52,952 nucleotides of DNA, from the NCBI GenBank assembly GCA_028691985.1, contig JAQUYG010000003.1, positions 1 through 52,952 of the forward strand, given 5' to 3'. The position numbers and the translations under genes were made by a program. Below, piece after piece: positions 12,611 to 16,480 of the stretch (within the stretch, counting starts at the first letter, position 1; each line of letters starts with the position of its first letter). The notes beneath the pieces are model-generated. The model had not been told where the DNA came from, made no database searches, and saw nothing but the letters and a program-made list of their open reading frames with translations. Origin of the DNA: Minisyncoccota bacterium. GTDB lineage: Bacteria; Patescibacteriota; Minisyncoccia; JAHIHE01; JAGLIN01.

Positions 12611-13042
12611 TTAGCTGTTTGCTCTTATAATGAGGTAGCTAGATATCAATAGTATCGCCTGCACGAGAAAATCATTCAGTGTGAGAATGTAGGATGCCAG
12701 TCTTTCTCTTTGGTAGAAAATGTGTCCCAAAAAGGAATTCAATATTATAACGATAAGTCCGACTGTCGGTAGTAAAAAAATCTTTTCGTAGTCCCCTAAA
12801 AAATCTACGCCATAAAAAAGGTTGTAATGAAGAATTATAGGGTAGTCGCTTTTGACGCGGTTTTCAATAAGATATATCCAATTTACAAGATTCATGAGTC
12901 CGCTTGCAAAAAGTACGGCCGAGACTTCGCTGTCTTGCCAGTAAGGTTTTTTGATAGTAATTTTTATTCCGCTTGAGACAAAACTCAATAGGATCATAAA
13001 TCTTCTCAAGATGACTTTTAGGAGTTTTTCTTGCTGCTGCAT
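12611..13042 (-). CDS. Small membrane protein of unknown function
   Basis: 143 aa with three likely membrane segments (about residues 40-57, 88-108 and 118-138) and a basic N-terminus. I do not recognise a family. It starts one base after the stop of the presenilin-like protease (TAA-A-ATG), so the two are very probably translated together. It is the last gene of the VIT / protease / membrane-protein operon. It could be a partner or substrate of the protease; this is speculation from position. Confidence 0.6.
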   Translation of the reverse strand: MQQQEKLLKVILRRFMILLSFVSSGIKITIKKPYWQDSEVSAVLFASGLMNLVNWIYLIENRVKSDYPIILHYNLFYGVDFLGDYEKIFLLPTVGLIVIILNSFLGHIFYQRERLASYILTLNDFLVQAILLISSYLIIRANS

Positions 13043-13043
13043 T

Positions 13044-13940
13044 TTAGGTTGTTAAGCTTATTATGAAAAATATGATTGCAAAAAACGATATGAGTGGAAG
13101 TGCCGGGATGGCCTTTTTTTCTTTTTGCAGGATAAAAAAGAGGTGATTGCATATGATTCCGACGATAGCTCCGGATATCGTGAAATAAAAATGGACAGAG
13201 CCCATAGGCAGGGTCGAAACCGCAAAAAATATCGGCAAAGCAAGGTCTCCCGTGCCTAAAAAAACGAATTCCTGTCTTTTTTCCGGTTTGGTAAAATCGA
13301 ATCTGTTTTTCCAGGAGGAAAAATTTTTGGGGATTACTAGTGCCAGTACAGCGCCTTTTTCTGCCATTCCCTTAAAGAGCTTGCTCATATGTCTAGTTTT
13401 ATAGACTGCAATCATGTCGTAGACAGACAATAGGATCAGAATCCCTGCGCTCGTCGCGGGGCTTGTATACATGCCGAAGTTGGCGGCGATGCCTGAGACT
13501 CCTATGATGATTGCAAGATTTTGTGTCCATATCCGCGGAAGTAGAAATCTGATAGTCGGTAAGGCTGTTGCTAATAAAAAGGCATATCCTCTTGAGAATA
13601 AGAACCTCAACGGTCCTTGTGCTCCGAAAATAATCGCTCCTGAAAAGAACAATTCAAATAGAAACCTCCCTTTGAAAACTTCCAAAAATATGAGCATCAT
13701 CATGGTGGCAATGAGGAAGGCAGCTGTGAATTCTATTAGTTTTGTCTGTACTTCCTGGTTCAAAATGTTAAAAGAGGTTTTAGATTTTTCCATCGAGAGC
13801 TGCGCTGTCTGGATCTGGAGATAGTCCTCATTTTTTTTCATTGTACCTTGCACGGTTAAAAGTGACAAAAAAGCTGTGGCGGAAAAAGCCAGAATGATTT
13901 GAAGAAGAAAATTGAGTTTTAGGTTCGCAGCTTTTGTCAT
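13044..13940 (-). CDS. Presenilin/SPP-type intramembrane aspartyl protease
   Basis: 298 aa with about nine hydrophobic segments. The three hallmarks of GxGD aspartyl proteases are present in order: YD in LSVYDMIAVY (Y174, D175), GxGD in LGTGDLALP (G229-D232) and PAL in IPALPL (P279-L281). D175 and D232 would be the catalytic pair that cuts peptide bonds inside the membrane. Length and layout resemble the short archaeal presenilin/SPP homologues (DUF1119-like) more than eukaryotic presenilin. The gene is tightly packed: one base after the VIT-like gene and one base before the 143-aa membrane protein. Substrates cannot be read from sequence. The motif evidence is strong; protease activity is inferred. 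Confidence 0.82.
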   Translation of the reverse strand: MTKAANLKLNFLLQIILAFSATAFLSLLTVQGTMKKNEDYLQIQTAQLSMEKSKTSFNILNQEVQTKLIEFTAAFLIATMMMLIFLEVFKGRFLFELFFSGAIIFGAQGPLRFLFSRGYAFLLATALPTIRFLLPRIWTQNLAIIIGVSGIAANFGMYTSPATSAGILILLSVYDMIAVYKTRHMSKLFKGMAEKGAVLALVIPKNFSSWKNRFDFTKPEKRQEFVFLGTGDLALPIFFAVSTLPMGSVHFYFTISGAIVGIICNHLFFILQKEKKAIPALPLISFFAIIFFIISLTT

Positions 13941-13941
13941 T

Positions 13942-14418
13942 CTAGTAAAAATTAGCGGCTGTCCAGAGCCCGATTTGATGGGTTATGAAGACAACTATTA
14001 ACGCTATGAAGATATGTTCTAAGATCACATGAATGCTTTTTGTGTCTTGACTCTTCGCGATGAAATGACTGACTATGGACAGGATCAGGACTCCCCAAAC
14101 TATACTGATTGATACTGCTTTTGAGAGATCAAAAAGTAGGACAGGTACGATAAAAGTCAGAGCAAACAGGAACTTTGTTGTAAAGGTTGCAAGAGTCGCT
14201 TCCCATATGTGGTTTTTGGAATTTACCTTATTTGACTCTTCTGATATGTGTATTCCCAGCGCATCGGACATCGCATCTGCAATCGCTATGGTTATAAGTC
14301 CTCCTATGACGGTTGCCTTGGAGTCTGTCCCAGCGGCCAGTCCTACCATGAGCCCCAAGGTAGTTATTGTTGCCGAAGTGAGTCCGAAACACAGTCCAGT
14401 TTTGAGTGATTGCTTCAT
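13942..14418 (-). CDS. VIT1/CCC1-like membrane transporter, short form
   Basis: 158 aa, about five membrane helices. The N-terminal half (GLCFGLTSATITTLGLMVGL, then ITIAIADAMSDALGIHISEES) matches helix 1-2 of the VIT/CCC1 iron-manganese transporter family, including the acidic residues of the second helix. The long cytoplasmic metal-binding domain of plant VIT1 is missing and the protein is shorter than most bacterial members. Probable role: membrane transport of Fe(II) or Mn(II). It is the first gene of the three-gene operon with the presenilin-like protease. Confidence 0.65.
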   Translation of the reverse strand: MKQSLKTGLCFGLTSATITTLGLMVGLAAGTDSKATVIGGLITIAIADAMSDALGIHISEESNKVNSKNHIWEATLATFTTKFLFALTFIVPVLLFDLSKAVSISIVWGVLILSIVSHFIAKSQDTKSIHVILEHIFIALIVVFITHQIGLWTAANFY

Positions 14419-14537: not shown

Positions 14538-15380
14538 TTATGAAATCCACTTGAATAGCCATCCGAACAGGCTGAATCCCTGGCGCTCTACCTCAAGTTC
14601 CTGTTTCAGCTCGGCTTTTACCTCGTTCATGATTTTAATCTGTTCCATTACTGCCTGAGCATCGCCTTCATTATTGAGCTGGTTTGCCAACTGTTGTATC
14701 TGCTGAATCCGGTTCTCTTGTTCCTGGATTTTTTTCTCGACTTCATTCAGTTTGCCGTAATTCGGACCTATAAGAAATTTTACGACTGAACTTCTCTTTT
14801 GGGCCTTTTCTAGCGAGTTTTCTATGGTGTCTTGGTCGTTATTTTGATTCTGTGCCATAACTTTTAATTGTTCGCCGGTTTCTCCGTTGTTCGTTGCTAT
14901 CCTTTCCATCTCTTGCATAGCATTGGCAATCTGATTGCGACGGTTTATGCTTCGTTCGGATTTTTCTTCGGTCGATTTTCCAAGTTCCGTCCGGTTTTCT
15001 TCTTGGTTTTGATTCTGAATTTGTGCTCCATTTCCGTCTCCGATTTCTTCCTGGATCATTTCTCTATTTTGTTCCTGTTCTTGATCCCCTGTCCTGTCCT
15101 GCAGGCGGTCTCTAACTTGTTCTTCCTCCTGTAAGGTGTCTCCCTGCCCTGTATCTTGCCCGCTCTGTTCTTTTGAGCTATCTTGTCCGGTTCCGGTCCC
15201 CTGCCCTGCTGTGGCATCAGATCCTTGACCTTGTGGGGTTGCAGCGTTTTGATTCCCTGTGGTTTCTTCCGACCCCGTACCGCTTCCGGGAGTCGGATCG
15301 ATCCTGGCGCCGAAAGAAATTACTGGTGTGAAAAACAAAACGAGAAACATCAGCACAGCACCTGTCTTTTGCCTTTGCAT
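14538..15380 (-). CDS. Secreted low-complexity Gln/Glu/Gly-rich protein with a coiled-coil end
   Basis: 280 aa from the ATG at 15380. That start is preferred because it opens a clean signal peptide (MQRQKTG, hydrophobic core, cleavage near SFGA). The open frame runs 42 codons further upstream but would bury the signal and cross the promoter. The mature part is rich in G, T, Q, S (about 25-75), then Q, E, N, R (about 75-150), followed by two helical coiled-coil stretches (about 150-260) and an amphipathic, aromatic tail GFSLFGWLFKW. No known domain is seen. It may be a cell-surface or periplasmic structural protein. Confidence 0.65.
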   Translation of the reverse strand: MQRQKTGAVLMFLVLFFTPVISFGARIDPTPGSGTGSEETTGNQNAATPQGQGSDATAGQGTGTGQDSSKEQSGQDTGQGDTLQEEEQVRDRLQDRTGDQEQEQNREMIQEEIGDGNGAQIQNQNQEENRTELGKSTEEKSERSINRRNQIANAMQEMERIATNNGETGEQLKVMAQNQNNDQDTIENSLEKAQKRSSVVKFLIGPNYGKLNEVEKKIQEQENRIQQIQQLANQLNNEGDAQAVMEQIKIMNEVKAELKQELEVERQGFSLFGWLFKWIS

Positions 15381-15423
15381 GATTTTATTCTTAATTGGAT
15401 AAAAAAACTTTCTCTTGCCTTTT

Positions 15424-15432
15424 ATTATAACA
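15424..15432 (-). promoter_or_regulatory. Extended -10 promoter of the secreted-protein gene
   Basis: Minus strand TGTTATAAT (15432-15424), a perfect TATAAT with a TG extension, about 44 bases before the ATG at 15380. It supports the shorter start. Confidence 0.6.
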
Positions 15433-15502
15433 CAAAAAACAGGATTATGATATAATATTGCAGAAAGGTTAAAAAAGAGATTATCTCGACGAGAGTTGCA
15501 AA

Positions 15503-16480
15503 TCAATCCAAAAATTCCTGGACAAAAATTATTCCATAAGAACCTGCGTCAATAACTCCTATGCCTACTCGTCCGAAGAATGGATGCAATATATTTTCCC
15601 TGTGTCCTTCACTCTCCATAAGTCCATCATGAGCCTCCTCCAGTCCGGGTGCATAGGCAAGATTCTCACCGATCATAGTATATGTCGTATCGTAGTTCTT
15701 CATCCTGTCGCTTGGCGATCCCCCTTCCAGATCAGTATGAGAGAAGATTCCGTTCTCAAAGAGATATTTGCCATAATTTCTGGCAGCCTCTCTGGCAACT
15801 TCGTCAATTGATAAAGCTTTTAAACCCCTTGCCGTCCTTTCTTTGTTGACCATTTCTAGCATCTTTTCTTCTAAGTCTTCCCTTAGTGAGAATTCCATAG
15901 TCTCAAATTTGAGATCGACTATTTCATCTGTTCCGGTTTCAACTGTTAAAAAGCTGAGTTTTTCCACTGTTGTCTCCAAAATGTTTCCAAAAACTCCAGA
16001 AAAACTCTTTTCGAGTCCCAGCTGGTTGTTTTTTACGAAATTGCCGAAAGTTGAAGCCTCTATCTCGGTAGTGACAAATGTTGGAAGAGAAAGAGAAAAA
16101 GTTGCTATGAATAAAGTAAAAAATACCACGACACCTGACAGGACAGAAACGGTGCCCCCGATGATTTTTTTTGTCATCGGGTCTTTGATCTGTGTAAATC
16201 TACGGATTTTTTTTGTGGCATATAGAAAAAGGAGAAGAAAACCTACTTTGGATATCGATGCGTTTATAAAAAAGCCTATTGCGTTCGCGTAAGCTTGCGG
16301 AATCTGAAAATTGGATACAAAAAACCCCGCCGTCACTTTGAAAGTGAGGAGTGCTATCATAATACCGAACACAAAGCTGAAAATTTCGGCAATCGTTTGA
16401 AGAAAATCTTTTTTTGCTCCTGAAAAGAGAAGTATAAAAAGGCAAAAAATGATGATGAGATCTATCCAATTTCCTATCAT
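15503..16480 (-). CDS. CvpA-like membrane domain fused to a CAP (SCP/PR-1) domain
   Basis: 325 aa. The N-terminal 170 residues hold four hydrophobic segments in the manner of the CvpA/colicin-V-production family (WIDLIIIFCLFILLFSGAKK start). A linker of about 30 residues follows, then a C-terminal CAP domain at about 205-325 with the motifs MVNKERTARGL, HTDLEGGSP, GENLAY and HRENILHPFFGRVGIGV. CAP domains in secreted bacterial proteins are thought to act on lipids or the cell wall, or to bind calcium. Here the CAP domain would be held at the outer face of the membrane. It lies 16 bases after the Na/Pi cotransporter gene, so they are probably co-transcribed. Confidence 0.82.
   Translation of the reverse strand: MIGNWIDLIIIFCLFILLFSGAKKDFLQTIAEIFSFVFGIMIALLTFKVTAGFFVSNFQIPQAYANAIGFFINASISKVGFLLLFLYATKKIRRFTQIKDPMTKKIIGGTVSVLSGVVVFFTLFIATFSLSLPTFVTTEIEASTFGNFVKNNQLGLEKSFSGVFGNILETTVEKLSFLTVETGTDEIVDLKFETMEFSLREDLEEKMLEMVNKERTARGLKALSIDEVAREAARNYGKYLFENGIFSHTDLEGGSPSDRMKNYDTTYTMIGENLAYAPGLEEAHDGLMESEGHRENILHPFFGRVGIGVIDAGSYGIIFVQEFLD

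Follow-up and report, generated by a model that had tools for sequence, protein, structure and literature searches.

We identified a single-copy gene for a presenilin-like intramembrane protease within a 52,952-nt stretch of DNA from a small-genome Minisyncoccota bacterium of the Moranbacteria (the window, here meaning the whole of the DNA analyzed). The gene (13044..13940, minus strand) opens with an ATG and encodes a 298-aa GxGD-type aspartyl protease resembling the archaeal enzyme PSH, and by its sequence it is a genuine bacterial member of the known GxGD/A22-type family. We consider it probable that the protein works as a PSH-type (MEROPS A22-like) protease held in the presenilin orientation, serving an accessory role and most likely trimming type I membrane stubs.

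Standard family models already recognize this bacterial branch. The protein matches the Pfam SPP family PF06550 (E 3.1e-18; 66.7 bits with a cut-off of 23.9) and the NCBIfam model of archaeal PSH, NF041679 (E 7e-21), in the latter case with 75 bits, below the equivalog cut-off of 125. Its sole match in the PDB is PSH of Methanoculleus marisnigri (4hyc, E 4.9e-15), and that alignment pairs the two catalytic aspartates of each protein. The window protein alone shows no significant similarity to Pfam Presenilin (E 9.5) and no match to PF04258 (Peptidase_A22B). A profile built from 22 Patescibacteria homologues, however, reaches both PSH (E 7.6e-35) and human presenilin-1 (E 1.1e-5), the latter with the YD (including its Asp), GxGD and PALP motifs all aligned. 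Searched singly at a loose threshold, these homologues match PF06550 in every case, Presenilin (PF01080) in 14 of 22 and Peptidase_A22B in 6 of 22. The presenilin/SPP-type assignment proposed by the first-pass annotation is thereby borne out, as is the similarity to A22-family profiles that it entails. Its placement of the host among the CPR bacteria also agrees with the closest named relative of the protein, which is found in a Candidatus Moraniibacteriota MAG (46% identity).

The catalytic motifs lie where that annotation had put them, at D175, D232 and P279-L281. Y174-D175 (13416..13421, minus strand) aligns with Y161-D162 of PSH and YD257 of human presenilin-1; G229-T-G-D232 (13245..13256, minus strand) brings its aspartate to the position of PSH D220 and presenilin-1 D385; and P279-A-L-P282 (13095..13106, minus strand) aligns with the presenilin-1 PALP. 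A Kyte-Doolittle scan yields eight hydrophobic segments at a cut-off of 1.4 and nine at 1.2, the latter in line with the nine helices first proposed. Judged by hydropathy only, D175 (segment 162-180) and D232 (segment 226-244) fall in neighboring transmembrane segments, with YD closing the sixth and GxGD opening the seventh, and the PAL motif precedes the last helix. An AlphaFold2 model built from two sequences only (the window protein and L019) reached a pLDDT of 42 and was unusable, so the geometry of the aspartate pair is taken from homology to PSH, whose active Asp-Asp distance is ~6.8 Å in simulations (PMC9282858). Residues invariant in all 22 homologues include Y174, D175, T182, H184, M185, P204, G229, G231, D232, P236, A280, L281 and P282. 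Furthermore, dN/dS values of 0.11-0.14 between close pairs show that the gene is under purifying selection.

Members of this family are sparsely distributed. PF06550 is matched in 17 of 54 genomes around and including that of the window, in 10 of the 14 genomes of its own family, and across the phylum in 13 of 380 sampled Patescibacteria genomes. Among 14 control genomes it is found only in the two archaea Haloferax and Methanosarcina and in none of the bacteria, which fits the initial description of the family as uncommon in bacteria. The window's own genome (1.1 Mb, estimated 99.9% complete) carries one copy. A tree with archaeal homologues, of the kind the first-pass annotation had proposed, separates all the bacterial proteins from the archaeal ones by a long branch; with only two archaeal sequences, the tree neither dates nor roots the bacterial branch. 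Within it, the own-family sequences and that of G016 form a fully supported group, with the G049 protease outside the own-family clade. A divergent PF06550 relative in another genome, G112 (L034:9756-10577, plus strand), has YD and GAGD and no recognizable PAL motif. Phage, plasmid and viral collections contain no relative that we could find of the window protein, and we therefore see no sign of a mobile element at the gene; with PSH as the query, one haloarchaeal plasmid copy was found.

To predict the membrane orientation, we counted lysines and arginines (K+R) per loop over 24 homologues and applied the positive-inside rule, leaving the large helix 6-7 loop (loop 6) out of the comparison. 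In all 24, the N-terminus and loops 2, 4 and 8 carry more K+R than loops 1, 3, 5 and 7 and the C-terminus; the excluded loop itself averages 8.8. The window protein taken by itself shows a thin margin (8 versus 7, again excluding loop 6), because its long first outside loop has 5 K+R, so the case is carried by the homologues. Under the positive-inside rule, this distribution predicts a cytoplasmic N-terminus and a cytoplasmic catalytic helix 6-7 loop, which is the presenilin arrangement. The SPP-type arrangement, with the N-terminus outside and type II substrates, is predicted for none of the 24.

This orientation bears on the substrate. The first-pass annotation had named leftover signal peptides, which are type II segments, among the possible substrates. 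Presenilins, with the N-terminus inside, cut type I proteins, whereas SPPs, with the N-terminus outside, cut type II proteins (PMC7768045). By this rule, which derives from eukaryotic enzymes, the predicted presenilin-like orientation favors type I segments and argues against signal-peptide remnants being the main substrate, leaving that suggestion unsupported. A functional signal peptide peptidase that degrades such remnants after export would accord with the name of the Pfam family (SPP), with the predicted signal peptide peptidase role under which the archaeal homologue HVO_1107 is listed (PMC8305020, PMC9263693) and with the lack of SppA in the window's own genome. We nevertheless regard this role as unlikely. 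Besides the opposite predicted orientation in 24/24 homologues, the protease is missing from 37 of the 54 genomes, though signal peptidase I is nearly universal among them, and M50 (RseP-type) proteases occur in all 54, the window's own genome included. SppA is found in 8 of the 54 (6 over the cut-off) and is missing from most genomes with or without the PF06550 protease, while G004, G009 and G016 carry both.

We also considered the protease as a replacement for SppA, rhomboid or M50 enzymes and rejected this as a correlation, since M50 is universal, SppA is rare and sometimes co-occurs with the protease, and rhomboid is absent from 53 of the 54 genomes irrespective of the protease; no rhomboid was found in the window's own genome. 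Signal peptidase I, by comparison, matches at about E 1e-40 or better in all 13 family relatives. In the window's own genome we observed a weak partial match to it, outside the window (G000:C38:7627-7878; E 4e-8, below the cut-off, in a 156-aa frame). The missing full gene is likely an assembly gap, though it may be a real loss.

The surroundings of the gene point to an accessory role. In the window the order is a VIT1-like gene, the protease, a gene for a 143-aa membrane protein and a uvrA-like gene, with 1-base gaps on both sides of the protease. The upstream neighbor (13942..14418, minus strand), which ends 1 base before the protease start, encodes a 158-aa membrane protein matching Pfam VIT1 (29.9 bits, cut-off 28.1). 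The 143-aa gene (12611..13042, minus strand) begins 1 base past the protease stop, and its product carries the motif PIxLHYNxxxGVD and has no Pfam match. In the four own-family genomes lacking the protease, the flanking genes are otherwise joined: in G002 the VIT1-like gene meets the 143-aa gene directly; in G007 and G013 the gene directly before the 143-aa gene is the one that precedes the protease in G008; and in G010 a CAP-domain gene takes that place. No clear protease remnant is seen at any of these four joined flanks. Loss is the simplest reading of these absences, because G012, which shares its genus with three protease-less genomes, keeps a copy nested among the own-family sequences. 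The gene thus looks dispensable in its own family, and the argument from its persistence in a reduced genome to a defined substrate is weakened by the 4 of 14 family genomes that do without it.

Two further genes upstream drew our attention. The gene at 14538-15506 (minus strand) encodes a protein of low complexity that looks secreted and has abundant Q, E, G and N, with related genes at the same position in G007, G008 and G013. At 15503-16480 (minus strand), a CvpA (Colicin V production) membrane domain is fused to a CAP/YkwD domain; this gene adjoins a Na/Pi cotransporter, an arrangement conserved in the family.

The protease and the 143-aa protein could also form a dedicated pair, in which the small membrane protein would be a substrate, adaptor or regulator. 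The 143-aa gene directly follows the protease in all 10 protease-bearing family genomes, is spaced from it by a single base in the window and is itself under purifying selection. The two genes are also adjacent in G049, whose protease falls outside the own-family clade, so a functional link stays possible. Against such pairing, the 143-aa family occurs in 128 of 380 phylum genomes (about one third of Patescibacteria), nearly all of them without the protease and often in other neighborhoods; phylum-wide, the two do not co-occur significantly (Fisher p 0.14). Moreover, the two genes lie on different contigs in G016, the 143-aa gene persists in protease-less genomes of the family, and the adjacency within the family may reflect a single inherited event. 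Together, these observations make a dedicated pair rather improbable. Members of the 143-aa family often sit beside a gene with an RmuC-like start (named by eye). A possible similarity between the 143-aa protein and DUF1648 was not confirmed when checked, and no relative of this protein was found in the viral collection. Finally, the protein might have lost catalysis and serve instead as, for example, a scaffold in the membrane or an ion leak. This would suit our finding no reported activity among bacterial members but is very improbable given that the catalytic and gating residues are all invariant across 22 divergent homologues.

We therefore return to a presenilin-oriented, accessory PSH-type protease as our preferred reading. 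From what is known of the family, D175 in helix 6 and D232 in helix 7, on neighboring membrane helices, would activate a water molecule, and the PALP segment before helix 9 would gate the active site. A substrate helix would be cut within the bilayer with no partner subunits, as for PSH. With the N-terminus and helix 6-7 loop on the cytoplasmic side, the most likely substrates would be type I (N-out, C-in) membrane stubs, which would be cleared or trimmed, possibly with release of a cytoplasmic fragment; such a role would be accessory and distinct from core signal-peptide disposal. Consistent with partner-free action, the archaeal enzyme by itself cleaves a Gurken transmembrane substrate in vitro, with both aspartates required (PMC2947513). 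Our literature search found no reported activity for any bacterial member. A more far-reaching version, in which Patescibacteria possess their own long-standing, presenilin-oriented branch that cuts type I proteins, fills the rhomboid niche and in some lineages partners with the 143-aa protein, seems doubtful to us.

Alzheimer's disease motivates the study of presenilin-type proteases, for which the simple models have so far been archaeal. A bacterial group of its own, with a canonical PALP and housed in minimal genomes that carry few other intramembrane proteases, would offer new material for structural work and a way to test whether it is orientation or sequence that determines the substrate. 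We found no paper linking presenilin-like enzymes with Patescibacteria proteins in our literature search. The kind of enzyme is already known; what this analysis usefully adds is the predicted orientation and the recurrent absence of the gene from close relatives.

Presenilin itself acts as part of a complex that also contains nicastrin, APH-1 and PEN-2, partners that are not expected for PSH-type enzymes. Human presenilin-1, the catalytic part of gamma-secretase, resembles the bacterial protein in its aligned motifs and in its predicted orientation, whereas the loops of the bacterial protein are much shorter. Eukaryotic SPP (PF04258) has the same catalytic motif set and is loosely matched by a minority of the homologues; unlike it, the window protein has no PF04258 match and is predicted to lie in the opposite orientation. 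HVO_1107 of Haloferax volcanii, whose genus likewise yielded a PF06550 match among our controls, is a predicted SPP and differs in being an archaeal protein (PMC9263693). The nearest characterized counterpart is PSH (MCMJR1; PDB 4HYC, 4HYG and 4Y6K; NF041679). The two proteins have the same length and motif order and align over residues 73-294, including both catalytic aspartates and a VYxTKHM loop after YD. The relationship is nevertheless distant, as the sub-equivalog NF041679 score indicates, with a long branch between the bacterial proteins and the two archaeal ones, and the bacterial proteins carry the canonical PALP where PSH has GLPP.
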